A stretch of DNA of 64,000 nucleotides from Odiellus spinosus (taxonomy: Eukaryota > Arthropoda > Arachnida > Opiliones > Phalangiidae): NCBI GenBank assembly GCA_963920705.1, contig OY987232.1, positions 16,956,942 through 17,020,941 on the forward strand, given 5' to 3'. The translations under genes were made by a program, and so were the position numbers. Below the pieces are notes generated by a model. It had not been told where the DNA came from. It made no database searches and worked only from the letters and a program-made list of their open reading frames with translations. How positions within the stretch are numbered: position 1 is the stretch's first letter; each line of letters begins with the position of its first letter. Shown here in pieces: positions 29,593-64,000 of this stretch.

Positions 29593-32500
29593 TTATCGTG
29601 AAAGTTTATGATTGAAGGTTCGTAACTCGGTTACGGATGACATATGAGTATTTGAGATGGAAAATTGTCCGGTTGTGAAACTACTACTGAAACCTCTTCC
29701 GAAACTTCGTTGTAGAAGATATCGTTGGTAGGTTCTCTTTAGGAGGTAAAGAACCTGTAAAGTACAAATACATATTTTGTGAAAAACAACTGTCAAAGTT
29801 TTCACTAGAATATTAATTGCAAAATAACTGAAAAATGATCTTTATGCATAAATTGAAAAGCTTTTAACTCGATATTTCTATATTTTTGATAATTTCCTTC
29901 TACACAATTTTTTGTTTAAAGGGAGAATGCAACCTATTCGATTCCTTATTGTTTAAATAGGCCTAATCCACTACTGAAAATATTTACAAACAAATATTAA
30001 ACTAGAAATAAATTTAAAACTTACCCTGAAAATAGGCTTAGTGGGATTCATGGAGGTCCTGTTTCCTCGCGTGTAAGGTCTAGCGACCAATCACGCGAGA
30101 CGTAAGTCTCGTGGAGATCTCGCGTGAACGACGGGCCTATGCTCATTGGTCGCTAGACCTTACACGGACGCGATTCAGGATCTCCATGAATCCCGCTAAG
30201 CCTATTTTCAGGGGAAGTTTTAAATTTATTTCTAGTTTAATATTTGTATTGTAAACTTTTTATCGATGGATTAGGCCTATTTAAACGATAAGGAATCGAT
30301 AAAAAAATCACTTGTAATTAGGTTGCATTCTCCCTATAAATGATTTAAGTTTATCATAAGTATATATTTTGTAGCCACATTGCGTTGCCTCATGAGATTT
30401 GACGCGCTAACTCTCAAGAATTATAGGTTTTCCTTAAAACTTTTAGTAGCCCACACTTTCTATTTCCAAAAATTTTGAAGAGATTAAGTTTTCATGTAAT
30501 CGCAGTTAATGTCAACTAGCTTCATAGACAATGAACTTTAGGTATCAACTTTATCGTGCTATGATTCATAACAAGCCTTGAACCAGAAGCCGATGAAACC
30601 CTCCTTTGAAGCCTATTACTCCCGGGTCTTGTCTACCCCTCTCTGTATGGGTTAGTTTCAAAAAGCGCGATTCGTACGCCTCCTAACGGTAGATATTTTC
30701 GGAGCGGGAGTTCGTCGAGCGAAAATCTCAAGCAGCCTTGGAGTTTGTCAAAAAAACGTCGTCGTTTGTGGAGAGAGAATTTCCAATTTTGCGTAGACAG
30801 GGGGTATGAAGTAGGACCCCTCCGATCTCGTAAAATTGGGAATTTTACCCATACAGAGAGGAGCGCTATATCGAACATTAGAGTAATAGACTTCAAAGCA
30901 GGGTTTCATCGGCTTCTGCTTGAACTTTTGTTTCGGATCCTGTCTCTGACTATTTCCCCAAAAGCAATGATGTCATTTGAAACGTCACTAAAGTCGTATG
31001 ACGTAAAAGTAATCCAGCCATTCATAATAGGGTAGCTTGACCTGCGGCTAAGATTCTCCCAGCCTATTGTCTATACTTAGTCCTTGCAGTCTAGTCCTAA
31101 GAGACCCCTAAATAGACCCTTCTCAGGTGACATTGACTTCCTTAAATAAATAAATTAATTATGGTAGAACACAAAATGTAAGACGATGGCCTCAAGAGCT
31201 TTTGCAACGAAGTTAGAAGATTAGTTTAAATCGTAATGAAAACCGTGAATAATATCCAACGTAAAACACTCCCGAAGCTTTAAATTCTAGAGATATAACC
31301 TTCTAAACAAGAAAAATTGATATTCCTTTGGGGGTAGAAAGCTCAACCGTACATAACTTCTTGCAATTATCTAAAAAAATGTAAAATTCCATGCCACACG
31401 AGGCGAAATGCTGGCAATTACCTTAGGCTGACCTTAAACCATGACCTTTGGGTAACCTTCCTAAGTTTTAACCAACCATTAAGGTTTTTGACCAGGATAT
31501 TCAATAAACACTGTAGTCCGTTGCGTAAGGTTGAGGTTGCCTTGACGCAAGTGGACTTAAGGCCCTCAATTTTTAAAACACGTGAAGCAATGTGTAAAAA
31601 ATTCTTCAAAACATTAATTTTCCATGCTATGAAGAATATCATTTAAGATTAAACCCCACTAAACTAAATTAATTTAGTTGTATGATTGGTTGATTTTCAT
31701 TTTTCATCTTAATCTTGGTAAAAGAATTTTTGATAATAATGGGACATAATCTAGACTAAACGTGTAGCCGTACATTTTATTTCAACTTGTTAATTATTTT
31801 GCTCCCGTTGAAACTTGTGGGAAGAGTGTTGCCTAGATCTTTTTCATGACTAGTTCAGTGCGTGTAGACCGACGCCTCTCTGTAGAAGCTGCGGCTACAG
31901 AATGTTGCAAATGGTACCTCTCAAAGGAACGCATTAGAAGTTTTTGTATCTGTTGAGAAAATACGTTCAAAAAACTGAATAAACTCATTAAGCCTGAGAT
32001 GATCCATCATGGTAATGCGTTTTGACTATCGCGAGTTACTATCTGGTTACCCCACTTTTACGTGGTAATTCCTTCAAACAAAATTTCTAGCTTACCTCTC
32101 CGTTACAGTAACAAAATGCGAGGGCCACGAAAAATCCCTGGAAATATCAAATAATTTATTTCCTGTTTGTTCTCTCCTTTACATTTTGGATAAATTAAAA
32201 ACAGGGATTTCCAACTGACATAATGTTCCCAAGTTTTATCTGGATATATTTGGCGTATCAGATATTGTGCTAATCAGATAGCGAACCATTTGTCTAACAG
32301 ATAACTGTCAATTTATTTATTTATTTACTTAATGGAGGGAATGCAGGCTGCTAAGCTAAAAGCTTATAAGCAACCGCCCAAGGCAAAATAAAACAAAAAA
32401 AAAAAGAAATGTATAAAAAACAATTTAGAGACGAGATTGAATCCATTGAAAACTCTTGGATGACGGTAGCTAAAGATATTCTTCAGGCAGCGAGTTCCAG

Positions 32501-35500
32501 TCGTTAATGACCCGTACAGTGAAGTGACTCGATTTTGCAAAAGATTTAGCCTGGGGTTTGACGAGCTTGGCGGGGTGACCTCTAGTATGACAATTTGTAG
32601 ATGGTGTAAAAAGTGTCGTGGTGTCGTGATGCACCTTTCCCGTGTAGATATCATATAGGTATACCAGATCGTTGACACGTTGCCTAACGGCTGGAGATTG
32701 GAGACGTAGATGTAAGTCACGAGCAGCGGGTGGAAGATGACTAAGGCCCTTTGTGATTTTAGTGAACCTATTGTGAGCCTTTAAGAGCTGAGTCTGTTGA
32801 GTAGCCCGTGGGGGTTTCCATATGACAGAAGCAAAGTCAATTAAAGGCAGAATCAAGGAATTGTAGATGGTACGCGTGAGAAGAGGAGAGTGATGGCAGA
32901 AATTTCTCCGCGTTAGCCCAGAGACGCTGTTAATTCTTTTGGAGATTGTTTGAACGTGGGTGTTATACACGAATTTCTCGTCGACGAGGACTCCCAAATC
33001 ACGCGCAGAAGTGGCCTTAGACAAACTAGTATCATCGATAACGTATGTGAAACGAAAATTTTTTGAGCCCAAGTGAAGGACCGCGCATTTTCCGATACTA
33101 AATGTCATTCCGTTGGAGGACGCCCACGCAACAACGTTAGAAAGATCTTCTTGGAGCAGGAGACAGTCCTTGTGGTGTGAGATAGCCTTGTATAATTTAG
33201 CGTCGTCCGCAAAGAGTAAAACTTTAGAATGTTTGACCCCATTAGGTAGAGAGTTGATAAACACGGAAAACAGTAGCGGACCAAGTACGGATCCCTGAGG
33301 AACTCCACTACTTGTCTCAAGATAGGGAGAAGGGTAACCCTTGTATACTACGCGTTGGCGGCGATTCGAGACAAAGTTCAATAACCAAGATAAAGCGTTC
33401 CCAGAGATACCGGCACTCCTCAAAGACAATCTTATGGCTGATATAGGGATGGTATCGAACGCTTTGGCGAAATCTAGATAGATAATGTCAACTGCTAAAC
33501 CAGAATTGAGCCACTCAACCCAGTCGTTCGTGGCCATCAGAAGGTTGGTCACGCATGATTTTTTGCGGAGAAAACCGTGCTGAGAAGAGTGAAAGTACTG
33601 CGTGGCTTCGAGGTGTTCATCGAGTTGAATCTTCACTATACGTTCGCAAGTTTTACCGACTTGACTCGTTAAGCATATGGGCCGAAAGTTTTCCCTGTCG
33701 AGGCGACTTCCTTTTTTATGGATAGGAGTAATATCTGCTGTTTTCCAGTCCGTTGGAACTACGCCGGCAGAAAATGATTTGGTAAATATGACTGCCAGCG
33801 GAGCGCAGAGGGACAGAGTCAATTCACGCAACAATTTAGGGTGAAAATTATCAGCACCGGGAGACTTCGAAACATCAATATACATCAGCTGACTAAACAC
33901 ATCCTGCTCCAAGCAGTAAAAAGAATAAAGTGGGCGAGACTCCACATGCTCGTCGGATTGAATTCCAATGGTTGGGTTATCGATGACATTGGACGACACT
34001 TGCGCAAAGTAAGTGTTAAGTAATTCCGTAATTTCTTGGGTATCGGATGTTAGGGAGCCGTCGGGTCTCTTCAGTTTCGATATTTCAAATTTGCAGGATC
34101 TTTTTCCATTGACGTAGCTGTAGAAAGCCTTAGGGTTGGACTTGATCATGGAAGTTAAGCGGGAATCTTTTTTTCTCTGAGCCTTTCTAGCAGCGTTGGT
34201 GTAGCCGTTGCGAGCTTTCTTATAGCTGTTGTAAGCAGCGTCAACTAGAACGTTGCTTGCATTACGTTTTTTCAGCCTTGTATAGCGCTTCCAAGTCGTT
34301 GCCTTAAGTGTGTATGACTTTGTAGATCGAATATTAAGGGGAAGACGTGCAACTGGTATTGTGCGGAATGGAACGAAGGAAGAGACGCCGCATCGTAAGA
34401 TTGAACAAAAGTTGTCCCAGCAACCATCGAGTGTCGAAGCCGAGAGAGTCGCGTCCCAGTCTTGTTGTAATAAAAAGTTGCTGAAGTTGTCATAGTCGCC
34501 CCTGAAATAGTCTCTTGTAGTCCGATGAGAAAGTGAACGTGAAACCACCGGAAAAGCGCAGTGGAAGCTCACAACATCGTGGTCACTATTACCTACAGGT
34601 GGGTGGTTAGTGATGTTATAGACGAGTAGCTCATCAGACACCAGTATAAGGTCTAACACGTTAGAGGAAGTACGGCCAGTGCGTGTGGGCATGGTAACCA
34701 TTTGGTGAAGCTGTAAATCTTGCACTAGTTCCAAGAAGTCTTTCGTTGGTAACGTAGCACCAATCTTGGGAGTTGCTGTCGCCCAGTTGATTTCCGGATA
34801 GTTAAAGTCTCCTAGTAGCAAGACCGTACAACAACGACGCAAACTATAGTCGTTAGCGGATTTCAGCACGAGACGAACTTGTTCATGATTATTGAACGAC
34901 GGAGAGCGGTAGAGCACCACGGTTAGGAGAGTTTCAACGTCATTTGAGCAGAGTACAGTCAAAAAGTCTATACCGATAGTAGCAGACCAGAGATCGGCGA
35001 GATCCGGGCGAATAAGCTGAATGGCTTCAGTGGTGTAATCGGAATGAACGTAGAGCGCAACACCGCCGCCCGTCGTTGAGGTGAGACGATCCCGGCGAAA
35101 TAAAGAAAACGAGTTGATAGATCTTTCGCTGTCGATGATTTCGGGCTTAAGCCAAGTTTCGGTGACGGCCACGATGAGTGCCTGATGGATAGTGACGAGT
35201 GATGTTAATTCGCCGAACTTGTATTGACCGCGCATACTCTGGATGTTTATGATAAGTATGACAGACGAGAGCGTAGCGCAGGAAGTGACCGGGTGGAAAC
35301 ATGGAGCCATGGGATTCAGACGCGATGTTGTAGGAGGCAAGTGATCAATGACGAAAGAGGCAGAAGCTGGTGAAGACGCATCCAAAAGAGATGTTGGCAG
35401 GAGTATGGGTGGTTGGTGTTGTTAATGCCGAGGAAATATACTTTGTAGTAATAGATCCGTCTCGAATGATCAGGCCTGTTTCACCCGAAGCTCTGCGACG

Positions 35501-38500
35501 GCGAAGCTCCTGACGTAATTCGAAGTGTTTACGTTGGTCCCCTGGAGTTCTGTCCACGGAGTACGAGTTACGAAACCCATATTACGGGTCAGTGCGGAGT
35601 ACATGAAGTTGTGATAGAAAATATTGGCGATCACGAACCGTAACGAACCGGAAGACCAAAGGGCGAGGACGATGTCGATTTGCAGAAAATCGGCCTAGAC
35701 GACTGAATAACACTTGGGCAATATCGGAAAGAGTGTAGCCGCAATCACGTAAAAGTGTTTTGCTAAAGATGTTATCTTCTTTAAGGGAGTCCAGGTCAGG
35801 AACATCGAAGACAAGAGCATTACTCTTACGTCTTTCCACTTCAAGGTGATCAGAAATCATAGATTTCTGATTTCCAGGTAATGTGCCGCAGTTGAATTCT
35901 CCCATTACAAACTGGTCGGTTGCAGAAGATGGGACAGTTTCCACAAGACCATCGATACTACGTACACGACCTGACGCTGCCGTGACACGGGTGGGCGACC
36001 GAATTTCCGAAGAAAGTCCCGAAATGGATTTCGTTAATTCCCGAACACTATGAGAATTTGCTTCGCACATTGCACCCACGGAATGTAACTCATTTTTCAA
36101 GGATATCACATCAATGCGGGAAGCGGCTGCACCAGCGCCACTGTTAGTAGAATTCTTGGTCGATTGCTGATAGAGATGTAACGAACGAGATAGATTTTCA
36201 CATTTGGTGTCTGTCGAATTGATATCGAGACGAAGATCCTTGGTAGTACCCTGAAGTTTAGTAAGCTCAGTTTGGAGAGCTGAGAATATTCAATGAAGAT
36301 TTTCAATGCCGGACGAAATCTGTGCTTCGAGTCGACGTATGTTCTCCGTGTTGTCCTTGGTTAGAAGTTGGAGCTCAGGGACGAGGACCACACAAGCAGG
36401 ACACATAAACGGAAGGTGCTTAACTTGGGACTCATCCAAGGCACAATGTTCTTTGCAGATACTCGCGGGTAGATTAACACACTTTGGGTGATAGCGGTGC
36501 AAACAAGATCGGCAGTTGAACGCGAATTTGTTGTTTCCGATATTCTTCGAGCACCCATTACAAGTTGATGACGACACTGAACTTGGATACATTGTGCCAG
36601 TGGGCTTCAGAGATGTATTAAGCTCATTTTGGCTTCTTGTCAAGATTGTTCGGCCGATTGTGGAGATGAATGATGCATTATGTTCTTGAGCAGAGACATC
36701 TGAAGACGATAGGGAGCGTTTCCTACGCATTGGTTCAGACAAATCGAAGGAAGTAAGGTAATAAATAGGCGCTAAGCCTTGGATTCCGAGAATTGTCGAA
36801 AATAGATTTGAAAATTAGCACGAGTTAAAAATCACGCGACTGTTCTCGAGCGCGCAATATTAATTTTATTTCTTGACAATATACTTCTAATTTATTCATT
36901 TAAAAAGCATTTTACATTTATCTGGGAGATAATAGGCGTAGTTAAGACAGATCTAAACTTGAAGATAACTTTCCTTCAGATAATCGGTTAACGGGTATAT
37001 ATTTCTTGTAATTAGATAAAAACTATCAGTTTTATCTGTTGATCGAAAAGATATCTGACCGGACTTAGAAGCACTATCCATTTCAGTTTGTTGCCAATTT
37101 CCACCCTATTGTGGGATAATAGCTAACAGCAGAAGCCAATGAAACCCTCCTTTGAAGTCTATTACTCCCGGGTCTTGTCTACCCCTCTCTGTATGGGTTA
37201 GTTTCGCGCGATTCGTACGCCTCCTAACGGTAGATATTTTCGGAGCGGGAGTTCGTCGAGCGAATATCTCTAGCAGCCTCGGAGTTCGTCCAAAAAACGT
37301 CGTCGTTTGTGGAGAGAGAGAATTTCCAATTTTCCGTAGACAGGGGGTATGAAGGAGGACCCCTCCGATCTCGTAAAATTGGGAATTTTACCCATACAGA
37401 GAGGAGCGCTATATGGAACATTAGAGTAGTAGACTACAAAGGAGGGTTTCATCGGCTTCTGCTACAGTGGAAAATCCCTTTAATTTATTCAAGAGTGTAT
37501 TTGGTTATTCTTTTCTTTGGTCCCACCTGGAGTCCGTCTAAAACATGTCCAAAGTAAATATATCCTTCAACTAATCCACAAGATCCAGATTCAGGTCGAT
37601 ATATTACGAGCAAAAAGTGTAATCCAAATAATGGAACGAGTACTATCGTTGCTCTAACTGCTTTCCTGAAATTGCAAACGCTTTTACATATGGCGAATAT
37701 GAAACATTTACTTGAATTTTTAATTTTGTGATGTTATTTCGAAGTTATACAAGGCATACCTGTATTGACTGGGTTCATTCGCGTTAGTGGCTCTAAGTTT
37801 CGTCAGAAGGACCCGAATAATATTGACCAGAAAAATTAGATTAAACTGTAGGATGAAAAACAAGAAAATTAAAAATTTACAAGATCGTCTAACACCAGAA
37901 GCCGATAACCCTCCTTTGAAGTCTACTACTCCAATGTTCCATATAGCGCTCCTCTCTGTATGGGTAAAATTCCCAATTTTACGAGTTAGAAGGGGTCCTA
38001 CTTCATCCCCCCTGTCTACGGAAAATTGGAAATTCTCTCTCTCCACAAACTACGACGTTTTTTGGACGAACTCCAAGGCTGCTAGAGATGTTCGCTCGAC
38101 GAATTCCCGCTCCGAAAACGTCTACCGTTTGGAGGCGTACGAATCGCGCCTTTTGAGAATAACCCATACAGAGAGGGGTAGACAAGACCAGGGAGTAATA
38201 GACTTCAAAGGAGGGTTTCATCTACTTCTGCTAACACCAATAAGGACTTACAATTAAGCTCAGTAAACTTGGGCCATTTAAAATCCATTCAAAATCGTCA
38301 GCTGGCATTGCCCAACATCTATTAAAGATGAAATGATTTTACATTAGCTAAATCGATATGAAACAGTAAAATCAAACCGATATTTAAATCGCCAGGATTC
38401 GTTTGAAGCGTTAGGTGTTCACGCGTTGTTTTTATAAATCGATTTATCGTAGCTTCATCTATCGGTTGTTATAACTGTCCGAATCGGTATGAAACTGGTT

Positions 38501-41500
38501 CCCGAAGCAGTTTCGAGAAATCGAATCAAATCGATTCGATAAAAGACTGTTTCCCGTTCATACGACTCCATGGAAACTTTTTGAAACCTTTTAAATCTAT
38601 TCCAAGGCCTAGTATTAATGTGTGACGCATGGTACACTTCTACAAGGATTGTTATGCTCCCCAAAAAGCCAGGAACTTAAATGCTTTAACTCGGCAGATT
38701 TAATTTTCTTCATAAACAATTATTTCCTATTTAGTGTGACTTACTTTTCATCGAAGTAGAGTATACGGACTACTAGATAAATGAGAACTGGTATCATTGG
38801 GAACCCTGTTTTGAAAAGCAAAAAAAAAAAAAAATTATACGAATTTTACATCAGATCAGAAAAAAGCCAAGTTATCAATGGATATCCGATTCCGAGCTCT
38901 ACTTAACCAGAAGCCGATGAAGCCCTCCTTTGAAGTCTACTACTCTAATGTTCGATATAGCGCTCTTCTCTGTATGGGTAAAATTCCCAATTTTACGAGA
39001 TCGGAGGGGTCCTACTTCATACCCCCCTGTCTACGGAAAATTGGAAATTCTCTCTCTCCACAAACGACGTCGTTTTTTGACGAACTCCGAGGCTGCTAGA
39101 GATATTCGCTGGACGAACTCCCGCTCCGAATATATCTACCGTTAGGAGGCGTACGAATCGCGCTTTTTGTAACTAACCCATACAGAGAGGGGTAGACGAG
39201 ACCAGGGAGTAATAGACTTCAAAGGAGGGTTTCATCGGCTTCTGACTTAACCTAATTGTCGCTAACATCTTTATCGAATTTATTTTTGGCCAAAATGCAG
39301 AGAAACAATATAAAGAGTTCTCCGAATTTATAATTAAGTTTAGTGACAATAGATCTTATTTTTCTTACCCCAACCAAAGAAGTAAAATAGAACAAGTGAT
39401 TTTTGTTCGGCAAATGCTGACGCTATTAATTTGTGTAAGTAATACGCTTCGGAAAACATCCACATGTAATTTGTCATTCGAAAATACTTGGTAAAAATCA
39501 ATATAATTCTACACCAGATCTAAAGGGAAATGGAAAAAAACACAACAAATTAAATTAGTAATATCCGAAGCTCCCATCCAAAATTGATAGTGACAAGTTT
39601 ATTTATTGTATTATTAGGAAATTTGCCATTTCTAGTCAAGTTTTTGTTTGATTTATTTCCCAGTCTATCTAACTCCTTTTACCTCATTCCCCAGTATCCC
39701 GCCTCTAGCGTTAGCGGGTGGGCACGATGTAGGCCTGACAGTGGCGGGTAACGGATAATATACTCTATCGAGGCGACATCTTCGAGTTTACGCGTAAAAC
39801 CCCGTTATAATATCCATTTCTTATCGTAACTAGAGTAAAATTAAACTTAAAACAGTCAAATTATACCACGAACCAGAGGTATATAATAACCCCCTTCGGG
39901 GGGAAGTATGAAAGGTAGGCAAAATTGACGAACAACGAGTGCCCGGCGTAAATCGCGGCGGATCGACACACCGCTTTACTCCCAAAAAATAGTTACACCA
40001 TTTTGAACCTCACTAAATTTTCCCTACGCGCACTTCCGGAACTCGCGAGCCGAAGTCAACCTTCGACTCCGTTTTAACAGACCCCCTGACTCCTGAGACA
40101 GGAAGTTCTAAACACAAATGGAGCCGTCTTGTTTATACAAAGACCATTTACTAGAGTAGCGACATTGAGAAGTCCAGCGCGAGCTAGTGGCCTAGATAGT
40201 CAGCAGCGGGCTCTTGTTGTTCGTGATTTTTAGCATTGGTAGTATAGGGGCTTTCATACTTCCCCCCGAAGGGGGTTATTATATACCTCTGCACGAACCC
40301 ATTGACTACCGCCTTAAGACATAACTAGGCTCTGATTGGACAGTCCAGTAAATGGTAAAACTTACATTATTCCTATCCAAGATAGTGTCTCCGGGTGGTC
40401 CATCTAATTCGTCAAGCATGACGGTGCTTTTTAAAATAATTGAGCTAACTCCGTTGAGTAACAATGACGCGAAAAAATTCTTGTGCATTGAGATACGGTA
40501 CACCTGAAGTTGCCTATATAAAATAACGTTCGATATATTAAAGTAGGAGCTTTAAAAAAATAAATTTAAAACTTACACGAAAAATAGGCTTAGCGGGATT
40601 CATGGAGATCCTGATTTCCTCGCGTATAAGATCTAGCGACCAATCGAATGCGATTGTAAGTCTCGTGGATATCTCGCGTGAACGTTTGGCCATTGCTCAT
40701 TGGTTGCTAGACGTTAATCGCGAGGAAATCAGGATCTCCATGAATCCCGCTAAGCCTATTTTCAGGGTAAGTTTTTCTAGTTTAATATTTGTTTTAGAAA
40801 CTTTTTATTGGGTATTAGGCCTATTTAAACGATAAGGAATCGATAAATAAATCGCTTGTTAGATTGCATTATCCCTTTAAGAAAAATATTTATATATAAA
40901 AACGTCTTCTTTGAATTTTTTAAGTTTCGAAACTTCAAATAAAATCCCCTCATAAATGAAATTCTAAATTTTTAAACATTCTGCGCCTGTACGTCAAAAT
41001 CGTATAGTATATATAAAGTTTTTACGAGCATCTCTGGTAAATTGTTAGAAAAAAACTCAATTTAAAAGAGACAGGCTAGTTTTTCCATATAAAATATTGT
41101 AAAAACAAAAGTCTATGACTTTATTTCATAAAAGTAAACAACGCCCCATAGCTGAATATTATCAGGAAAGGTCCAGATTTACTTAAAATAGACAAAAAAG
41201 TCATCACCCCTGTCTGCCTCGAGTAATTTGGACTCTTCCACGATATTTTGAATCGGGAGAAAGGGCGTCCTTGGCTATATTGTCTTCCCCCACAACTCTG
41301 CGGAATTTCTCCGCAGAGTGGCGCTTCCGATTTGACTATTTACACGGCGACTGCGACCGCTAGAGTGTCTCGAATCAGAATCTGCCGGATCTTTGCTGAT
41401 AGTATTAAGCTACGGGGCGTAATTTACTTTTATGGGATACAGCAGAAGTAGATGAAACTCTCCTTTGAAGTCTACTACTCCAATGTTCCATATAGCGCTC

Positions 41501-44500
41501 CTCTCTGTATGGGTAAAATTCCCAATTTTACGAGTTAGAATGGGTCCTACTTCATCCCCCCTGTCTACGGAAAATTGGAAATTCTCTCTCTCCACAAACG
41601 ACGACGTTTTTTGGACGAACTCCAAGGCTGCTAGAGATATTCGCTCGACGAACTCCCGCTCCGAAAATATCTACCGTTAGGAGGCGTACGAATCGCGCCT
41701 TTTGAGAATAACCCATACAGAGAGGGGTAGACAAGACCCGGGAGTAATAGACTTCAAAGGAGGGTTTCATCGGCTTCTTGATAACGCTGATTTATAAAAT
41801 ATAAATGAACTTACTTATAGGTGAAAAAAATGATGAGTGATGGAATTAGAAACGTGACTGATATTGTGTACATGGCTAGATGAAATACGAGTTGTTGTCG
41901 TAGATCCTGAAAAGATAGCGCTGTTGAATATTTTCAGCTGAAGAACCTATATGTCAATACTATGAATTATTATAGACTTATGCACTAATAGAAACATTTA
42001 GTGTGATTACGTTTAATCTCCCACAAGGCGCGTAAGAGGTCCATTCTTTTCTCCTTCTTTTGTCGAAATACCATTGGCCAGATTCCATGCATTCTTTTTC
42101 AGCGTATTCTAAAAATATTTTAAAAAGCGCCATCTAATGTCGTTAAGTGGAATTATAATTAATTATTCTTTGATTTAAAAGATCCATAAGTTTAACCAGA
42201 GGTATATAATAACCCCCTTCGGGGGGAAGTATGAAAGGTAGGCAAAATCGACGAACAACGAGTGCCCGGCGTAAATCGCGGCGGATCGACCGACCGCTTT
42301 ACTCCCAAAAAATAGTTACACCATTTTGAACCTCACTAAATTTTCCCTACGCACACTTCCGGAACTCGCGAGCTGAAGTCAACCTTCGACTCCATTTTAA
42401 GACAGCCTGACTCCTGAGACAGGAAGTTCTAAACACAAATCGAGCCGTCTTGTTTATACAAGGACCATTTACTAGAGTAGCGACATTGAGAAGTCCAGCG
42501 CGAGCTAGTGGCCTAGATAGTCAGCAGCGGGCTCTTGTTGTTCGTGATTTTTAGCATTGGTAGTATAGGGGCTTTCATACTTCCCTCCGAAGGGGGTTAT
42601 TATATACCTCTGGTTTGACTAAGGACTGTGGTATTTCGCCTGTTGCTCTGATATACTTTGGTCAGCAATATCTGATTCCATCTATTAGGTGTAACCAAAA
42701 GTTTAGCACTTCATTCAATAAAAGTAAACAACGCCCCATAGCTTAAAACTATCAGAAAAGATCCAGTTTTACATCATAGCCTATCAATTAAAAATAGCCA
42801 AAAAAGTCATCACCCCTGTCTGGCTCGAGTCATTTGGACTCTTCCTGGATATTTTGAGTCAGGAGAGAGGAACCGAATTTAGGCGGGCCAGGCTTGGCTA
42901 CGTCTTCCCTCCCAACCAAGGAATTTCTCCGCAGAGTGGCGCTTCTGATTCATTATTTACACGGCGACTGCGGCCGCTAGAGTGTCTCGAATCCTGCAGA
43001 ATCTGCCAGTACATTTACCCGGACCTTTACTGATATAGCTACGGGCATTGTCTACTTTTACGTAGTACAGTAATATACTTTTGGCCATAATATTTTGATA
43101 TAATCGTTTGAAACATCAACTTTAGTTGAGGCCTTACGCGTGGGTTGTGATAATTAATACAGAGAATTGGAAATGAAATTTAAGACCTATCCTAATTTAA
43201 GTTTTGTGAATGAAAGCTTAAGTTAAACATACTACTGTGTTAATCAAAGTTTTCAAGCATAGACTTACTTAAACATGAGGGTTTATCAGTCTTGAAATAA
43301 ACATGATCAGCGCAATAAACCTTAGCGATTTCACCAGACTTTGTTTCTGGAAAACATTGCCATCCATCCCAAGTTCCAACACAAGTATCATTGTTACCTA
43401 AAGTCATAAATATAATTTATTTTACATAAATTCAATGAAAATATGAAGCTACAATCAGAAGCCGATAAAACCCTCCTTTGAAGTCTATTACTCCCGGGTC
43501 TTGTCTACCCCTCTCTGTATGGGTTATTCTCAAAAGGCGCGATCCGTACGCCTCCTAACGGTAGATATTTTCGGAGCGGGAGTTCGTCGAGCGAATATCT
43601 CTAGCAACCTTGGAGTTCGTCAACCAAACGTCGTCGTTTGTGGAGAGAGAGAGAGAATTTCCAATTTTCCGTAGACAGGGGGGGTATGAAGTAGGACCCC
43701 TCCGATCTCGTAAAATTGTGAATTTTACCCATACAGAGAGGAGCGCTATATCGAACATTAGAGTAGTAGACTTCAAAGGAGGGTTCCATCGGCTTCTGCT
43801 ACAAATGATCTCTTTTAATGTAGCAGTTTACTTAATGTCAAAAGTCTACTTCATTCCATAAAAGTAAACAACGCCTGGTAACTTAATAGTATCAGCAAAG
43901 GTCCAGTTTTACCTTATATAGCCCAGCATCACTTAGAAATAACCAAAAAAGTCATCACCCCTGTCTTATTCGAGTAATTTGGACTCTTCCTCGATATTTT
44001 AAGTCTGGAGAGTGTTTGAATTTAGGCGGGCCGCGCTTTCCTATATTATCTTTCCTCCAAACTCCAGTATTTCTCCGCAGAGTGGGGCTTCCGATTCCTT
44101 TAATTAACACGGCGACTACGGCTAGAGTCTCTGGAATCAGAATCTGCCTGTACATTTACCTGAAGCTTTTCTGATAGTATTAAGATACGAGGCGTTGTTT
44201 ACTTATATGGAATAAAGTTATAAATTTATGTTAATGTGGGCTGAATGTTACTTAAATTATCCTACAAACAATTCATAAATCTTCTAATATCATTGGATCC
44301 CTCTACACATTTAAAAATAAAGTAATTATCAAGCGAATGTTTTTACTTTGATAACTTGTTAATGATACTCCAGTCAAACAGCATTTTTCCGCTTCAACGC
44401 AGCAAGATCTCCATTTAATGATCGCAGTCAACGAAGCGAAAGTATGATATACTGGATGACTCGCGTTTCGCCATAATGCTCCGTAACTCACATTCGTTTC

Positions 44501-47500
44501 CGGGTCCGTTAGCGTCGCAAACCTCTCGCTATAACTAAGATTTTATTGTTAGACGCGAAATAATATGAGAACTAAGTATTTTTGATCATTTTTATGAAAC
44601 ATTCAACAATAAAACAACTCGTGTTCACACTAGATACTTAAAGGCGGTAGTAAAGGGTTATTTAGTACTATTAAGAAACACCGGATGGCACTGATTTTCA
44701 TTAATAGGGGTCTCAGTTTTCTGGGGGTAAGCTTCGTTTGGGAACTCTCTCTTACCTCTTTCCCCAGTAATCCACCTCTCAGGAATCGGGTGGGCACGCT
44801 GTAGGCCAGACGGGAACTGGTAACGGATAATAGACTCTATCGTGCCGACAATATTCGAGTTTACGCGTAAAACAGCGTTATAATATACATTTCTAATAGT
44901 AATTAGAGTAAAAATTAAACTTAAAATTGTTAAATTATACCACAAACTACGTCCGACTTTTGAGGTTTCGTCGGAAGTTCTAGCGATATTAGAACGCGAG
45001 ATAATAGGTACGGAAATGATCAAATTTCGATTAAGTTATTCTTAAACGCGATTCGCTAATCTCTCGCGTTATAATTATCAAAATTACATCATAAACTAAA
45101 GAGGATTTCAATTGAAATTTAAGTGAAACCCGCGAACTGATAGCGTTTGTGGTTCGATTGATAATAGCAGAGGTATATAATAACCCCCTTCGGGGGGAAG
45201 TATGAAAGCCCCTATACTACCAATGAAAAAAATCACGAACAACAAGAGCCCGCTGCTGACTATCTAGGCCACTAGCTCGCGCTGGACTTCTCAATGTCTC
45301 TACTCTAGTAAATGGTCTTTGTATAAACAAGACGGCTCGATTTGTGTTTATAACTTCCTGACTCAGGAGTCAGGCTGTCTGTTAAATTGGAGTCGAAGGT
45401 TGACTTCAGCTCGCGAGTTTCGGAAGTGCGCGTAGGGAAAATTTAGTCAGGTTCAAAATGGTGTAACTATTTTTTGGGAGTAAAGCGGTGTGTCGATCCG
45501 CCGCGATTTACGCCGGGCACTTGTTGTTCGTCGATTTTGCCTACCTTTCATACTTCCCCCCGAAGGGGGGTTATTATATACCTCTGATAATAGGTATGGC
45601 AAATGACCATATTTTGGTGAGGTACCCATTGACTACCGCCTTAAGTATATCCTTTTGATGCAGTGTATAAGATTAAACCTTACTGAAATCTTCTTGAATT
45701 GAAGAATCCAAGGGGCATATAGTTGTAGCACCTTGCGCAAGTATCTAAGATATACGCTTCGTATGATAAACCCATCATTCTTTCGGTTCTGCAGCAAAAT
45801 GATTCTGCTATAGGAGCTTCGCTAGAATTCTCACGCGTAAAGTTGAACTCGGAAATTAATACCGGCAAGTACAATTTCATTTCATGATATTGATCGTTTT
45901 TGTACAAATAGCGTTGAAACTAAGATATGTAAAATATAAATATAATGTCCAACACCATTTTAGAGTGAGAATCTTACATCCAGAGTGGCGCACCCTGAAT
46001 GGTCCGTTTGATCTAACTCATAGGAATATTTCTCGATGTTATTCATTAAGCAAACTCGTTTGGAATAGCCTGCCAGAAATAATATGATGTAGATCAAATT
46101 TAATTGTAGTTAAAACTTAATGTAACCATAAGTCTATCATTTTATTTCATAAAAGTAAAAAACGCCTCGGAGCTCGGAATCGGATCGATCCATTATCTTC
46201 TGTTATTCGTATATTTTCAGATATTTTATTTTCGGATAAAATATTAACTAAAACAATGAAATTTATATATTCGTATAATTGTTAAATGGTTTACCCGATG
46301 ATAAGCGTTTGGCGCTTTATCTGTCTACAAATTACTCGTTTTTAAACGTATAACGATGGATAAGAAACATTCGCGTTTCCAGAATTAGTCTAAAATATAA
46401 GAAAAAAATTTCAAATTGACTTTTAACTCGAAGAATATAAATAAAACGACGAAACTAAGATTTTAAATCATCTTTTTATTCGTTATTTTTCACGAAAATA
46501 AATTTTGAATTTTTTTATCCGAACGTATAACGTCTATAATATTCTAAGATAAGTTGCCATTTTTGGATAAAAACGGATATGGATTATGTATTTTTACTTT
46601 ATCTTCGGATAAGTTAACTCGAATGAAAAATCTATTTTTAATCAAACAGATAATATACATCAGAATTTAGTAGATTTTATCCAATTAATAAAAATTATAC
46701 GAATTCCGAGCTCTAGAGATTTATGAGCGTATGGAGTCATAAGTGTTTTTTGGAGTTTTGGTAGTGCAAACTGCAATATCATGTTTGTATATTGATTTGC
46801 CTGAAGATGAAATTTCGTATAAATACTTACGCGGACAGATAGGAGTATCTTCCAAGTAAAGAAAATTGGGACAAGGTAGCTCTAAAGTAACACCCCCATC
46901 CATCGGTGGCCAGCACTGTACACCGTCCCAAATTGTAGGACACGCTGTGGCTAAAAAAAGTTTTGAAAATACTCCCATGAGAAAAAGTTAAAAGCACTAT
47001 CCTATGATTTTTGGAGCAAATCTTTTGCCCAAAGGAACATCGATTAATCAAGTGCTTTCTCGATCTATATATAAGCGAAAAATAAGCCTTTCGTACGATT
47101 TTTCCCACTACATCAATTCCCCTAGCCCTTTTTTTTTATCAGGTCGCCAGTAAGGCTGCAGCTTCAACGGCGCTTGAAATCAAAATAAATATATTTATTA
47201 TTTTCCAAGGAGAATAAGCGTGGAATACGTTAGCACGTTCTACAAATTGATTAAGGACGAAGTAATCAGTGATTATGTTATTACAAGGTTGCCATAGGTC
47301 AGGGAAAACAGGGAATTTGAAAATGAACCATCAGGGAATTTTAAGATATTTTAAAAAGTCTGGGAATTTAAAGATCTTTCAAGAAGCCAGAAAATTCCAA
47401 TCATTATCCGCGGAAAAGATTCTCAGCTGACTGTGTCAGTTGTATAGATTAGAACAAAGATACGCCTGCAACAAAGTTTGGCGAACGCGATTATATGAAA

Positions 47501-50500
47501 AATAAAAAAGGTTAAAAATTGGGTAGTATTAGCTGAAAAGGTCAGAGAAAATCGTTGGAAAAGGTCAGGGAATTTGAATCTGAAAAAACTGTGGCAACCC
47601 TGTATAATTAGACTCAAATAAAAGCTTGAAATTTATTTCATATTTCACCAAAAAATCATTTTAAATAAGCCTCACTTTTGAAAATCAAATTACATATCTA
47701 CTGTGTTAGGCTAAAAGTCTATGACTTCATTTCATAAAAGTAAACATCTCTCTCTCTCTCACGCTTTTAAATATCAAGGAAGGGTCCAAAACACAGAGGC
47801 AGAGGAGGGGTGATGACTTTTTGTCTATTTTTAAATGCTGGGCTATGACGTAAAACTGGTCCTTTGCTGATAGTATTAACAGAAGCGGATGAAACCCTCC
47901 TTTGAAGTCTATTACTCCCGGTTCTTGTCTACCCCACTCTGTATGGGTTAGTTTCAAAAAGCGCGATTCGTACGCCTCCTAACGGTAGATATTTTCGGAG
48001 CGGGAGTTCGTCGAGCGAATATCTCTAGCAACCTTGGAGTTCGTCAACCAAACGTCGTCGTTTGTGGAGAGAGAGAATTTCCAATTTTCCGTAGACATGG
48101 GGGTATGAAGTAGGACCCCTTCTAACTCGTAAAATTGGGTATTTTACACATACAGAGAGGAGCGCTATATGGAACATTAGAGTAGTAGACTTCAAAGGAG
48201 GGTTTCATCGGCTTCTGGTATTAAGCAACGGGGATGAAATCACTTGTTGACAGATGGCATTCTCCCTTAGTCTATCTCTAATGACATTCCAAATTTTCTC
48301 AAGGGTCTATATATTTGTTTAATTTTTAAGGTTATGTTTCGTTCGTGATATTTTTCAATCAATTTAATTATAAACAGAGCGTGCCTTTGGACGTAATCGT
48401 TCTCTTGTTTTCTGTGCGTGCTTCTAGAGAAAATTACTTTCTTTTGTATAGCACCTTCAACCTCATATAGTTTCAAAAATTTACGACCGCCTCGATCATT
48501 ATATATTCGTGATATTACTAGGCTAATTTCTATTTATCGAAAAAAACAAAAGGTTATATATGAAAAACAAAGCATAATCGATATTCTATAGACATGAAAA
48601 TAGCGTGATTTATGAGATAGCAGATATATAACGAACTGGTTAACCTGAAATTAACTGATAACAACTTTAAAGATTGATTAAAAATACACGTAGAATAATT
48701 TCTCTCAATCTGTACTTTCTTATTATTATAAGGGGCTAAGCCTTGGTTACTTTCTAAGCCTCGGCAGACACGCGCGAGATTTGCTTTAGTTGCACAATTT
48801 AGCTTGCAATGTTTGCCGCTAGGCGACGCTTATAATCATCAGTTTTTAGCTCCATTCATACAAGAAGGATCAGATAAGGAGAGGAAAAGTGGGAACGGCG
48901 CGGCTCCTACTGCGTCGGCCTAAACTCCCACTCTGGGAGAACGGGGGACAGACGGGGGTAGAGATGCTTCGTGGTAAATTGCTGTCACGTGGGTAAAACG
49001 AATCCTTTATGAGACGCGCTAGCTAGCGACCACGTGACAACAGTTTACCTCGAGAATTTCCTATCCCACCTTTCCACCCGAGTGGGAGGTTGGCTCTTCT
49101 CTCTCTAACTCAACGCAGCCCCACTTTTCCTCTCCTTATCTGATCCTTCTTGATTCATACTAGGCCTTGTAATCGATTTAAACCTTTTCAAAACGTTTTT
49201 CCCGAATCGATTTGATTCGATTTCTCTAAATTGAAGGCTGAATTAATATGATTGGTCGAAATTTATTTTATTCAAATTTTACCAAATTTCATAAATTAAT
49301 TTATACACCAAAAACGTGACTAAAAATTCGTTAGTTAGTGATACCGAAAATAAATTAAAAAGGTGTGTCATTTTTAGCTCCAAGTTTCCCTGTAAACGCC
49401 AAAGATGTGTGTTGCAATAATTGTTTTTTGGGCACAATGATTCCGAAAATAAAATAAACGAACTGTAATTTTCACTTCAAACCTACTTTCGTTTTGAGAA
49501 ACAGTGGCTGTTAGGGTATTTTTACAGCATTCCCAAGCTGCTTGGCAACAGCTTTGCCATTTCCAATAGAAAACCTTGTTAAGAAACGTCTGGCTCAACC
49601 ACTCCGAATCCGTTGGATCGTATGTCATATTGGTGTTAGGGTGAAACAGCAAACCCGTTGATTTATTAAATCTATTTAGGGATTTCAAAACGTAAACAAT
49701 TAAAGTTTCTTAAGTGCTTGACTCCGAGCTTGAGTATATCGTTAATCTAAAAAAAACTAAGCTTTTACCACAGGTAAATCATGCTTCAAGTTTACAAAAA
49801 GGCATATTATGATTGGTACGTGGTTCTGAAAGTTTTTTCGTCAGAGTTTTCGAAAATATATCGACGGAAAACGACTCTCCCCTCTCTCTCTCGCGAAACG
49901 AAGGAGAGTGTCTCGCCAGGCCGTCGCGATTTCGAGTCTGATTTACTCTAAAAAGAATATACTGGGCCTGGCCACCTTTCTGTACAAATTCTGAATATTT
50001 AGGGTAAAACCGTGGACTGAGAAAATCGGACTCACTTCTTTGTCACCCGCAGTATGTCGTCTTATAAACTTGAAGGATAATAATCTTTGGTTTTCAATAG
50101 ACAATATTAAAATTAATAGTGAACTTAGTAATTAAATTAATTTAAGGCGAATCTCAATAATTAGGAGCAGAAGCTGATGAAACCCTCCTTTGAAGTCTAT
50201 TACTCCCGGGTCTTGTCTACCCCTCTCTGTATGGGTTAGTTTCAAAAAGCGCGATTCGTACGCCTCCTAACGGTAGATATTTTTGGAGCGGGAGTTCGTC
50301 TAGCGAATATCTCTATCAGCCTTGGAGTTCGTCAAAAAAACGTCGTCGTTTGTGGAGAGAGAGAAATTCCAATTTTCCTTAGACGGGGGGGTATGAAGTA
50401 GGACCCCTCCGATCTAGTAAAATTGTGAATTTAACCCATACAGAGAGCGAACATTAGAGTAGTAGACTTCAAAGGAGGGTTTCATCTACTTCTGTTAGGA

Positions 50501-50669
50501 GTCATACTCACTTTAGTCGCTGTCCTTCTTTGAAAGCAAATTTCGGAAAAATATTGTAGCATTCACCGCAGGAGAAACTTTTGTAAACGTCAGGTAGAAA
50601 AATTTCGTCATTTATTCGACATTCACTTGACAACGCCACTGATGAGTAAAGAATTAACAGAAGGAACGC
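29593..50669 (-). CDS. Class B (secretin-family) GPCR with two tandem hormone-receptor ectodomains; 5' exon not found
   Basis: Seventeen exons in transcript order: 50512-50669, 49487-49671, 46831-46950, 45978-46069, 45684-45919, 44347-44534, 43269-43397, 42011-42108, 41815-41906, 40366-40513, 39369-39519, 38745-38805, 38252-38318, 37760-37845, 37527-37665, 32096-32137, 29593-29754. They join in frame to 717 residues. The first carries a signal peptide (AFLLLILYSSVALSS) but no Met, so an upstream exon is missing. Exons 1-4 and 5-8 each encode a Cys-rich unit ending in a hormone-receptor domain (TIWDGVQCWPP in the first, TWDGWQCFPE in the second). Seven membrane segments follow: FHLAMYTISV (TM1), HKNFFASLLLNG, TNYMWMFSEAYYLHKLI, WGFPMIPVLIYL, NIIRVLLTKLRA, VLVPLFGLHFLLV and GFFVALAFCYCNGE (TM7). 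The tail is Ser/Thr-rich. These match calcitonin/DH31/PDF-type Gs-coupled peptide receptors; the ligand is unknown. Confidence 0.93.
29921..30335. mobile_element. Family F foldback element, best copy
   Basis: It begins GGGAGAATGCAACCTA and ends in the complement TAGGTTGCATTCTCCC (one base offset). Inside, CCTAATCCA and AAAATAGGCTTAG-GGATTCATGGA blocks pair with complements on the right, and GTAAGGTCTAGCGACCAAT pairs with ATTGGTCGCTAGACCTTAC at the centre. The whole element could fold into one long hairpin. Confidence 0.85.
30584..30918 (+). mobile_element. Family A transposon in receptor intron
   Basis: Complete terminal repeats; exact 7-bp duplication CTTGAAC at 30577-30583 and 30919-30925. 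Confidence 0.95.
32470..35385 (-). CDS. Retrotransposon ORF2: endonuclease plus reverse transcriptase, intact
   Basis: The frame is open for 971 residues with no stop. The N-terminal apurinic-type endonuclease shows NIQSMRGQ, AVTETWL, LLGDFNYPEINW and SDHDVVSFH. The reverse transcriptase shows FRPICLTSQVGKTCERIV, QHGFLRKKSC, IYLDFAKAFDTI, GVPQGSVLGPLLFSVFIN and the catalytic FADDAKLY. No RNase H or LTR is seen. Order and motifs fit the CR1/L2/Jockey group. It overlaps the end of ORF1 by about 40 bp in another frame. An intact frame suggests recent insertion. Confidence 0.96.
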   Translation of the reverse strand: MDASSPASASFVIDHLPPTTSRLNPMAPCFHPVTSCATLSSVILIINIQSMRGQYKFGELTSLVTIHQALIVAVTETWLKPEIIDSERSINSFSLFRRDRLTSTTGGGVALYVHSDYTTEAIQLIRPDLADLWSATIGIDFLTVLCSNDVETLLTVVLYRSPSFNNHEQVRLVLKSANDYSLRRCCTVLLLGDFNYPEINWATATPKIGATLPTKDFLELVQDLQLHQMVTMPTRTGRTSSNVLDLILVSDELLVYNITNHPPVGNSDHDVVSFHCAFPVVSRSLSHRTTRDYFRGDYDNFSNFLLQQDWDATLSASTLDGCWDNFCSILRCGVSSFVPFRTIPVARLPLNIRSTKSYTLKATTWKRYTRLKKRNASNVLVDAAYNSYKKARNGYTNAARKAQRKKDSRLTSMIKSNPKAFYSYVNGKRSCKFEISKLKRPDGSLTSDTQEITELLNTYFAQVSSNVIDNPTIGIQSDEHVESRPLYSFYCLEQDVFSQLMYIDVSKSPGADNFHPKLLRELTLSLCAPLAVIFTKSFSAGVVPTDWKTADITPIHKKGSRLDRENFRPICLTSQVGKTCERIVKIQLDEHLEATQYFHSSQHGFLRKKSCVTNLLMATNDWVEWLNSGLAVDIIYLDFAKAFDTIPISAIRLSLRSAGISGNALSWLLNFVSNRRQRVVYKGYPSPYLETSSGVPQGSVLGPLLFSVFINSLPNGVKHSKVLLFADDAKLYKAISHHKDCLLLQEDLSNVVAWASSNGMTFSIGKCAVLHLGSKNFRFTYVIDDTSLSKATSARDLGVLVDEKFVYNTHVQTISKRINSVSGLTRRNFCHHSPLLTRTIYNSLILPLIDFASVIWKPPRATQQTQLLKAHNRFTKITKGLSHLPPAARDLHLRLQSPAVRQRVNDLVYLYDIYTGKVHHDTTTLFTPSTNCHTRGHPAKLVKPQAKSFAKSSHFTVRVINDWNSLPEEYL
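35345..36742 (-). pseudogene. Retrotransposon ORF1 with PHD finger, two in-frame stops
   Basis: Three open segments (36742-36290, 36109-35582, 35557-35345) share one reading frame, so this was one protein of about 465 codons. A TGA interrupts it near 36287 and a TAA near 35580. The N-terminal third has a Cys/His cluster of PHD type (CNGCSKN, CRSCLHRYHPKC, MCPAC). A Gln/Leu-rich probable coiled coil follows, then a basic region. ORF1 proteins of CR1/L2 elements bind RNA in the retrotransposition particle. With two stops this copy is probably not autonomous despite its intact ORF2. Confidence 0.8.
37130..37461 (+). mobile_element. Family A transposon in receptor intron
   Basis: Complete copy; left repeat has CCAATG for CCGATG. 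Flanks CTAACAG and CTACAGT are poor as a duplication. Its right end lies only 66 bp from the TM6 exon. Confidence 0.92.
37896..38230 (-). mobile_element. Family A transposon in receptor intron
   Basis: Complete copy with exact duplication CTAACAC on both sides (37889-37895, 38231-38237). It ends 21 bp from the exon at 38252, so it abuts the splice donor. Confidence 0.95.
38908..39244 (-). mobile_element. Family A transposon in receptor intron
   Basis: Complete copy with exact duplication ACTTAAC (38901-38907, 39245-39251). Confidence 0.95.
39874..40291 (+). mobile_element. Family B inverted-repeat transposon
   Basis: Terminal repeats of about 40 bp start CAGAGGTATATAATAACCCC and end in the complement. 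Exact 7-bp duplication CACGAAC at 39867-39873 and 40292-40298. Each terminus contains a CCCCCTTCGGGGG mini-hairpin. No coding capacity. Confidence 0.95.
40555..40880. mobile_element. Family F foldback element, left end eroded
   Basis: It shares the paired AAATAGGCTTAGCGGGATTC and GAATCCCGCTAAGCCTATTT arms and the right end AGATTGCATTATCCCT with the copy at 29921. It lies just upstream of the TM2 exon in gene sense. Confidence 0.8.
41110..41440. mobile_element. Family C element, interrupted on the right by family A
   Basis: Left end GTCTATGACTTTATTTC and AGTAAACAACGCCCC; right side GATAGTATTAAGCTACGGGGC and TTTACTTTTATGG. The internal CTCCGCAGAGTGGCGC block matches other C copies. Family A begins at 41443. 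Confidence 0.8.
41443..41780 (-). mobile_element. Family A transposon at the right end of family C
   Basis: Complete apart from the final base (CTTCTTG instead of CTTCTG). It ends about 35 bp from the TM1 exon. Confidence 0.9.
42197..42612 (+). mobile_element. Family B transposon
   Basis: Complete copy; 7-bp flanks GTTTAAC and GTTTGAC differ at one position. About 97% similar by eye to the copy at 39874. Confidence 0.94.
42690..43085. mobile_element. Family C element, near full length
   Basis: Starts CCAAAAGTTTAGCACTTCAT and ends TACTTTTACGTAGTACAG-TAATATACTTTTGG, imperfect inverted ends. Internal CGGCGACTGCGGCCGC and TCATCACCCCTGTCTGG blocks are shared with other copies. Confidence 0.82.
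43456..43798 (+). mobile_element. Family A transposon
   Basis: Complete copy; flanks CTACAAT and CTACAAA share six of seven bases. It begins 58 bp from the exon of the second hormone-receptor domain. Confidence 0.93.
43835..44222. mobile_element. Family C element, near full length
   Basis: Left end AAAAGTCTACTTCATTCC and AAAGTAAACAACGCC; right end GGCGTTGTTTACTTATATGG and AATAAAGTTATAAATT. Internal blocks match those at 42690. Confidence 0.85.
45168..45586 (-). mobile_element. Family B transposon
   Basis: Complete copy, opposite orientation to that at 39874; exact 7-bp duplication ATAATAG on both sides. Confidence 0.95.
46127..46177. mobile_element. Family C fragment, left end only
   Basis: Reads AAGTCTATCATTTTATTTCA and then AAAAACGCC, and stops where a family D element begins. 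Confidence 0.65.
46178..46717. mobile_element. Family D AT-rich element
   Basis: It starts GAGCTCGGAATCGGAT and ends ATACGAATTCCGAGCTC, so about 11 bp of the ends are inverted. A second copy at 52290-52755 matches it closely over about 450 bp. It has many TTCGTATAA-like motifs and no coding frame. Confidence 0.75.
47287..47603. mobile_element. Element with GGTTGCCA / TGGCAACC ends
   Basis: Left end AAGGTTGCCATAGGTCAGGG, right end AAAACTGTGGCAACCCTG. The GTCAGGGAATTTGAA motif recurs inside. A decayed relative is at 15290-15495. Confidence 0.65.
47709..48240. mobile_element. Family C element, internally deleted and split by family A
   Basis: Left end CTAAAAGTCTATGACTTCAT; middle part AGGGGTGATGACTTTTTGTC; then GCTGATAGTATTAA, where family A (47880-48217) inserted and duplicated GTATTAA. 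The remnant AGCAACGGGGATG follows. Confidence 0.8.
47880..48217 (+). mobile_element. Family A transposon nested in family C
   Basis: Complete copy; exact duplication GTATTAA at 47873-47879 and 48218-48224. Confidence 0.95.
48861..49152 (-). mobile_element. Family E inverted-repeat transposon
   Basis: Terminal repeats begin CAAGAAGGATCAGATAAGGA. Exact 7-bp duplication ATTCATA (48854-48860, 49153-49159). The centre contains two CACGTGAC-type motifs facing each other around GCTAGCTAGCG. Confidence 0.95.
50168..50494 (+). mobile_element. Family A transposon next to the signal-peptide exon
   Basis: Complete with a small deletion near the right end (CAGAGAGCGAACATT). Exact duplication TTAGGAG on both sides. 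It ends 17 bp from the donor side of the exon at 50512. Confidence 0.94.
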
Positions 50670-63580: not shown

Positions 63581-64000
63581 AAAAAAAAAAAAAAAAAACA
63601 AAAACAAAAAAAACAACGAAAACCAAATTTTTTTACAAGAGGTACCCCTTGTTAAAAAAAATTATTTTTACAAGGGGTGTATTTATTATTTATTTTTTTA
63701 CAAGGGGTGTATTTAATATTTATTTTTTTACGGGGGTGTATATAATATTTATTTTTTTTTACGGGGGGGTGTATTTATTTTTTTACGGGGGGTGTATTTA
63801 TTATTTATTTTTTTTACGGGGGGTGTATTTATTATTTTTTTTACAGGGGGTGTATTTATTAATTTTTTACAGGGGGTGTATTTATTTATTTTTTTACAGG
63901 GGGTGTATTTATTATTTATTTTATTTTACAGGGGGTGCAATTATTATTTATTTTATTTTACAGGGGGTGTATTTATTTATTTTTTTACAGGGGGTGTATT
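63581..64000. repeat. Poly-A tract followed by degenerate tandem array, open at window edge
   Basis: A run of A at 63581-63598 leads into about a dozen irregular units of roughly 25-32 bp. Each has TTTTTACAGGGGGTGTATTT followed by a variable ATTATTTATT stretch. The array is still running at base 64000. Confidence 0.93.

Follow-up and report, generated by a model that had tools for sequence, protein, structure and literature searches.

A predicted class B1 receptor gene of Odiellus spinosus with a tandemly duplicated HRM ectodomain

The N-terminal ectodomain of class B1 receptors is described as one six-cysteine domain (PMC7200681, PMC3961327, PMC12638048, PMC12716839, PMC4302439, PMC4504005), and in the two-domain model a class B hormone receptor is taken to have a single ectodomain for each seven-transmembrane (7TM) domain. 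The protostome “Cluster A” receptors are reported to be CTR/CLR-related (PMC3961327, PMC7200681, PMC12638048), and those protostome N-terminal regions that could be judged were stated to be generally of vertebrate length, i.e., not doubled (PMC3961327). In CLR, W72 (the Trp shelf), D70, G71, W121, T122 and Y124 are described as surrounding the place where the amidated end of CGRP or adrenomedullin (AM) sits; alanine at W72, W121 or Y124 cut the potency more than 20-fold for CGRP and more than 40-fold for AM, and likely structural roles were ascribed to D70 and W69 (PMC4504005). In the CLR:RAMP complexes, according to the same source, an extra folded domain beside the peptide pocket tunes selectivity (PMC4504005), and HRM-bearing adhesion GPCRs are described as combining an HRM with a class B 7TM domain (PMC12716839). 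No class B1 receptor with two HRMs was found among the papers listed by searches of the open-access literature, which is not proof of absence from print. Two papers on adhesion GPCRs use the wording “HRM domains” (PMC9508192, PMC6422961). The doubled-HRM class B1 ectodomain described here is apparently a new form, not proven to be unreported.

The window analyzed here is a stretch of 64,000 nucleotides of the O. spinosus genome (443 Mb), C8:16956942-17020941. By reading of the splice sites, the minus strand from 50669 to 31850 was modeled as one secretin-type (class B1) receptor gene of 17 exon pieces, with 697 codons, no stop and 16 introns that are all GT-AG. The predicted protein consists of A1, B1, C1 and D1 (unit 1, the outer unit), A2, B2, C2 and D2 (unit 2, the inner, membrane-proximal unit), TM1 to TM4, the second extracellular loop (ECL2), TM5 to TM7 and a tail, encoded as follows (positions in the window; phases given as in/out).

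50512..50669, minus strand: exon A1 (unit 1), hydrophobic leader AFLLLILYSSVALSS, then the CxxC motif CGECYNIFP; phase 0/2
49487..49671, minus strand: exon B1 (unit 1), helix region with CCQAAWECC; phase 2/1
46831..46950, minus strand: exon C1 (unit 1), HRM core CPTIWDGVQCW, above the Pfam HRM cut-off; phase 1/1
45978..46069, minus strand: exon D1 (unit 1), final two HRM cysteines, GxW and WTxY motifs lost; phase 1/0
45920..45977, minus strand: intron between unit 1 and unit 2, 58 bases, not a multiple of three; read-through from D1 hits a stop
45684..45919, minus strand: exon A2 (unit 2), linker and CARCYNYMP; phase 0/2
44347..44534, minus strand: exon B2 (unit 2), WRSCCVEAEKCC; phase 2/1
43269..43397, minus strand: exon C2 (unit 2), HRM core CVGTWDGWQCF, above the Pfam HRM cut-off; phase 1/1
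42011..42108, minus strand: exon D2 (unit 2), final two HRM cysteines, GQW and EWTSY retained; phase 1/0
41815..41906, minus strand: TM1 exon; phase 0/2
40366..40513, minus strand: TM2 exon
39369..39519, minus strand: TM3 exon, overlapping the 7tm_2 genome match C8:16996308-16996463
38745..38805, minus strand: TM4 exon
38252..38318, minus strand: exon of the second extracellular loop, with a CW motif
37760..37845, minus strand: TM5 exon
37527..37665, minus strand: TM6 exon
32096..32137, minus strand: TM7 exon, preceded by an intron of 5389 bases containing a non-LTR retrotransposon
31850..31949, minus strand: start of the C-terminal tail exon

The window gene thus differs from the usual class B1 state of one HRM unit in having two four-exon units. 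The eight exon ends between 50512 and 42011 that the earlier note had given proved exact to the base on the minus strand, and its out-phases of 2, 1, 1 and 0 in both sets were reproduced. The in-phases (0, 2, 1 and 1) match as well, giving 0/2, 2/1, 1/1 and 1/0 in unit 1 and identically in unit 2, making each unit a module that begins and ends in phase 0; the phase-0 intron had been claimed for the 3′ side of each set, and the 5′ side is also in phase 0. The assignment to class B was confirmed by seven helix exons and a 7tm_2 (PF00002) match of 184.4 bits (E 2.8e-54) covering profile positions 9-250 of 250. Pfam further recorded two HRM stretches, with a whole-protein score of 59.9 bits, and in a genome profile search both exons C scored above the HRM cut-off (30.1 and 28.5 bits vs 26.2). 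The hydrophobic stretch in A1 looks leader-like by eye and may belong to a signal peptide; the Met exon of the gene was not found, with four weak candidates listed for it, and the 3′ end of the C-terminal tail was likewise not found.

Among solved structures, the 7TM domain was best matched by human CLR (E 1.7e-59), with CTR also among the best, and unit 2 by the calcitonin receptor ectodomain (E 3.2e-10, residues 119-214 of 217). The best match of unit 1 was the GHRH receptor ectodomain (E 9.7e-7), over the HRM core alone. The predicted protein therefore resembles CTR and CLR in its 7TM domain and in unit 2, and differs from them in carrying two HRM units rather than one. With the HRM-bearing adhesion GPCRs it shares the combination of an HRM and a class B 7TM domain, but its HRM is duplicated and abuts TM1; an adhesion GPCR was rejected, as no GAIN or GPS domain was detected in the protein (Pfam, E up to 0.01) and D2 runs into TM1. 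An OCRE match in unit 1 was below the cut-off and was put down to chance. The retrotransposon in the TM6-TM7 intron (window 32473-36814, minus strand) contains an open frame of 983 codons for an endonuclease and a reverse transcriptase (RVT_1, E 1.5e-26), and the stretch preceding them looks PHD-finger-like by eye.

The likeness of the two units was examined by scoring against composition-preserving shuffles. Whole unit 1 against whole unit 2 of the window gene gave a score of 197 (z 28), which 0 of 400 shuffles reached. The exon-by-exon likeness that had been proposed was strong for B (z 10.3) and C (z 11.2) and weak for A (z 3.8), and it did not stand for D on sequence alone (z 1.3, not significant), so that D1 and D2 are paired by their place, phase and two cysteines. 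With the paralogue on C11 included, the matching exon scored best in 15 of the 16 comparisons between a unit 1 and a unit 2, the sole exception being D in C11 unit 1 vs C11 unit 2, where the z-score was 0.1. A profile of the two unit 1s against one of the two unit 2s, each of two rows, gave a probability of 98.9 and E 1.8e-17 over 145 columns. In the alignment of these four units, eleven cysteine positions do not vary, and at a twelfth only C11 unit 2 departs, having W; each unit has 12 to 14 cysteines, including those of CxxC and CCxxxxxC[CW], vs the canonical six of CTR and CLR. A chance resemblance between cysteine-rich exons, to which the weak pairing of A and D might point, was rejected on the whole-unit shuffle test and the profile-profile comparison, with the matching-exon comparisons also against it, and its likelihood is negligible.

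The paralogue, C11:9969100-9961543 (minus strand), has eight ectodomain exons with phases identical to those of the window gene, followed by exons for TM1 to TM7, with TM5 and TM6 in one exon; the model comprises 638 codons without a stop, the tail lying outside it. The exon ahead of its unit 1 encodes MISNSLMSRKLGLFPVVVCLFLSVAVGW, from Met to leader, and ends in phase 0; by its look it is signal-peptide-like. The intron between the units is 425 bases long in C11. A genome search with the C11 ectodomain returned C11 and C8 only, among the matches listed (best 10 of 11). Conservation between the two genes is higher in unit 2 (score 278, z 40.5) than in unit 1 (score 168, z 22.7). The two unit 1s nevertheless have 13 of 13 cysteines in common, at about 25% identity. 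The unit 2 exon most alike between the paralogues is A2 (50% over 63 residues, z 19.8). This exon (C8 45684-45919; C11:9965343-9965174), with the pattern RTER..LSY.AY.LDTCA.CY.YMP, is conserved though it lies outside the canonical HRM.

Two HRM units were present in four of the nine secretin-type loci examined. The nine are the C8 window, C11, C12a (hereafter C12), C6 minus, C6 plus, C4, C12b, C16 and C8b; C12:23153701, C11:20904621 and further HRM matches on C1, C12, C14, C3 and C2 lie outside this count. The C12 gene, from 22516751 to about 22512260, has two units before its 7TM domain, 532 bases apart and with two HRM stretches; the order of a helix exon (0/1), a core exon (1/1) and a last exon (1/0) occurs twice, the longer of two candidates being taken as the helix exon of unit 1. 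The C6 minus gene, from 21139826 to 21118168, has two core exons and two last exons before one 7TM domain, and its units, about 11 kb apart, each score above the HRM threshold, with 35.7 and 77.5 bits. No helix exons were located for these two HRM units, and TM7 of the gene falls outside the stretch covered. Its relative C6 plus has one HRM unit within 10 kb upstream, and the genome scan gave no further HRM match upstream. These three loci (C12, C6 minus and C6 plus) we take to be of the insect DH31 receptor (calcitonin) type, to which they are similar; two of the three show an extra outer HRM unit. The in-frame, exon-for-exon duplication of the ectodomain claimed for the window gene is thus supported by the same eight-exon plan in its paralogue and by two HRM units in two more genes.

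A tree of the 7TM domains (ten rows; TM3, TM5, TM6 and TM7), in which four of the seven inner branches remained open, paired C8 with C11 (84/93) and grouped C12, C6 minus and C6 plus (95/93). C8 and C11 were not joined to human CLR with support. Besides these, the genome presumably also holds calcitonin/DH31-like, PDF-receptor-like and other class B loci, so that a placement of the window gene in Cluster A would be by elimination alone. The loci C4:11239961 and C12:9107425, which we take to be PDF-receptor-like genes, have one HRM each and formed a pair (100/100) in the same tree. Another class B locus with a single HRM, C8b (C8:17903679 / 17897867), lies on the same contig as the window gene, some 0.9 Mb away, and the G after D in its core is replaced by S (FDSLSC).

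The residues known from the CLR pocket were located in the units of the four genes from sequence motifs and from the spacing to the final cysteine; five receptors with a single unit that are encoded in this genome (C6 plus, C4, C12b, C16 and C8b) served as controls. The inner units of C8, C11, C12 and C6 retained the equivalents of W72, W121 and Y124 in all four cases. Among the outer units, W121 was found in none of the four and Y124 in one (C6); W72 was present in two (C12 and C6), with V in its place in C8 and Y in C11. Both W121 and Y124 are therefore gone from the outer units of C8, C11 and C12, and the WTxY stretch is absent from unit 1 of C8 and C11. The single-unit receptors had Y124 in all five cases, W121 in four (R in C16) and W72 in one (C6 plus), suggesting that W72 marks the calcitonin type and that Y124 and nearly W121 are general. 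The loss of W121 alone is accordingly no proof of non-binding, because the single-unit C16 has R there and yet keeps Y; the outer unit of C6 is alike in having Y without W, and for it a loss of binding is least sure. The D70/G71 equivalents (the DG motif) were retained in all eight units of the four genes. The pocket residue pattern, together with the PDB matches, suggested that unit 1 has been repurposed and that unit 2 is the working peptide-binding domain.

We consider it somewhat probable, judging from the predicted sequences, that the window gene encodes a CTR-like GPCR with a tandemly duplicated, phase 0-0 HRM cassette, in which unit 2 would bind the peptide and unit 1 would be an outer accessory domain. 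The whole N-terminal HRM module would have been duplicated in tandem as an exon cassette with phase 0 at both borders, giving a single chain of leader, HRM unit 1, HRM unit 2 and 7TM domain. Unit 2, which keeps W72, W121 and Y124 and for that reason is given this role, would do the ordinary class B job of holding the C-terminal, amidated half of the peptide, and the N-terminus of the peptide would enter the 7TM bundle while unit 2 grips that half. Unit 1, with the HRM disulfide core kept, would serve as a cap, a spacer, a partner contact or a modulator of selectivity; we infer that it is an outer HRM put to other use, perhaps a regulatory cap, and it may bind something via another surface. In comparison with vertebrate CLR:RAMP, the additional domain here is itself an HRM and belongs to the receptor chain; a search of the genome for RAMPs, uninformative by its nature, gave no match.

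The earlier note had spoken of two ligand-binding modules, and both units might indeed bind peptides, either different ones or one in succession, with either unit driving the 7TM domain. Unit 1 persists in both paralogues, with the core cysteines of the HRM, the WDG motif and a Pfam-level similarity retained, the D70/G71 equivalents are kept in all four outer units, and C16 exists in the genome as a single-unit receptor without W121, to which the outer unit of C6 is alike at two positions. Such a receptor with two ligands nevertheless appears unlikely, since W121 is lost from four of the four outer units and Y124 from three, vs none and none of the inner units and one and none of the five single units, and since the WTxY stretch is gone in unit 1 of C8 and C11. 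Two equal sites are therefore less well supported; a regulatory or structural outer domain, which the note had also raised in regulatory form, fits better, because the outer units lost most of the amide-holding residues of CLR and the inner units keep them. The phase-0 borders bear on another possibility, namely that the duplication serves a change of ectodomain by exon skipping, yielding receptors with both units, with unit 1 only or with unit 2 only. The entries of A1, A2 and TM1 and the exits of D1 and D2 are all in phase 0 in both paralogues, as is the end of exon 0 of C11, so that either unit could be skipped in frame; however, this would require the joint skipping of four exons, and no sign in the sequence pointing to skipping was found, and we give this splice-switched reading a low probability.

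A remaining alternative is that unit 1 is part of another gene, or a decaying remnant not joined to unit 2 by splicing. It would agree with the greater divergence of unit 1 between the paralogues (168 for the two unit 1s vs 278 for the two unit 2s) and with the loss of several motifs from D1 of the window gene. In contrast, no stop or broken splice site was found in the eight exons of either paralogue, the signal-peptide-like exon of C11 precedes unit 1, and all 13 cysteines are shared by the two unit 1s despite their low identity. Further, none of the 7tm_2 matches listed (best candidates, E up to 0.001) falls between the two units of any of the four genes, and the gaps of 58 (C8) and 425 (C11) bases leave no room for a separate receptor gene between the units. 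A separate gene was rejected on the gaps, the C11 leader and the lack of a listed 7tm_2 match between the units, and the alternative as a whole is very improbable.

The second HRM may have arisen once or twice. Two separate duplications in related receptors would be the simpler reading of the sequences; one old duplication with later gene conversion is possible. Independence is suggested by the extra cysteines (CxxC and CCxxxxxC) and the helix region spread over two exons that the C8 and C11 units share, from which C12 differs: each of its two units has a core of six cysteines and a single helix exon and lacks CxxC and CCxxxxxC. It is also suggested by the scores of the C and D exons, where the C12 and C6 outer units are nearer to each other (122) and to the inner units of that pair (106-125) than to the outer units of C8 and C11 (64-87). 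C11 unit 1 scored 94 with C6 unit 2, 93 with C8 unit 2, 87 with C12 unit 1 and 83 with C8 unit 1, so that the C and D exons alone give no sisterhood of the C8 and C11 outer units. A tree of the HRM units (12 rows of about 65-80 residues, with very long branches) left eight of nine inner branches open, and only C12 unit 1 with C6 unit 1 reached 80/81; scores were used instead for dating in C8 and C11. The duplication looks older than the C8/C11 split, as the two unit 2s score higher with each other (278) than unit 1 with unit 2 in C8 (197), an order that is not clean because the two unit 1s score lower (168) than that. In a more speculative and rather doubtful form, calcitonin-type receptors would have twice independently gained a second HRM, which lost its pocket and became a RAMP-like gate in cis to the inner HRM, removable by splicing.

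The occurrence of the doubled HRM in four loci of two groups suggests a lineage trait and not a freak gene. With ectodomains in series and the pocket mostly in the inner one only, a deletion can reveal the effect of the extra domain on affinity, selectivity and signaling, and the doubled HRM lets one ask whether vertebrate RAMPs have a functional analogue that arose by tandem duplication. Pipelines for annotation and phylogeny may split such genes or drop one of the units.

Several other features were recorded in the window and the genome. On the plus strand of the window, positions 3300-6107 hold an open frame of 936 codons with a NACHT domain (E 2.6e-19), an NTPase of the innate-immunity type. 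Long minisatellites occur at 9798-10578, 14403-14657, 16042-17211, 19995-21130 and 63665-64000, with units of 20, 30, 225, 20 and about 27 bases, respectively, and 97-99% matches in the first four; a portion of the first, with GGGNVNT repeats, can be read in several open frames. On contig C286 (16,074 bases) a COX1 is open throughout when translated by the invertebrate mitochondrial code (table 5). Compared with conserved COX1, AAA stands for Lys and AGA for Ser, which argues against the codes of echinoderms and flatworms, and the sequence looks arthropod-like. Contig C17 carries several nuclear COX1 copies with TAG and TGA stops, which are probably NUMTs.
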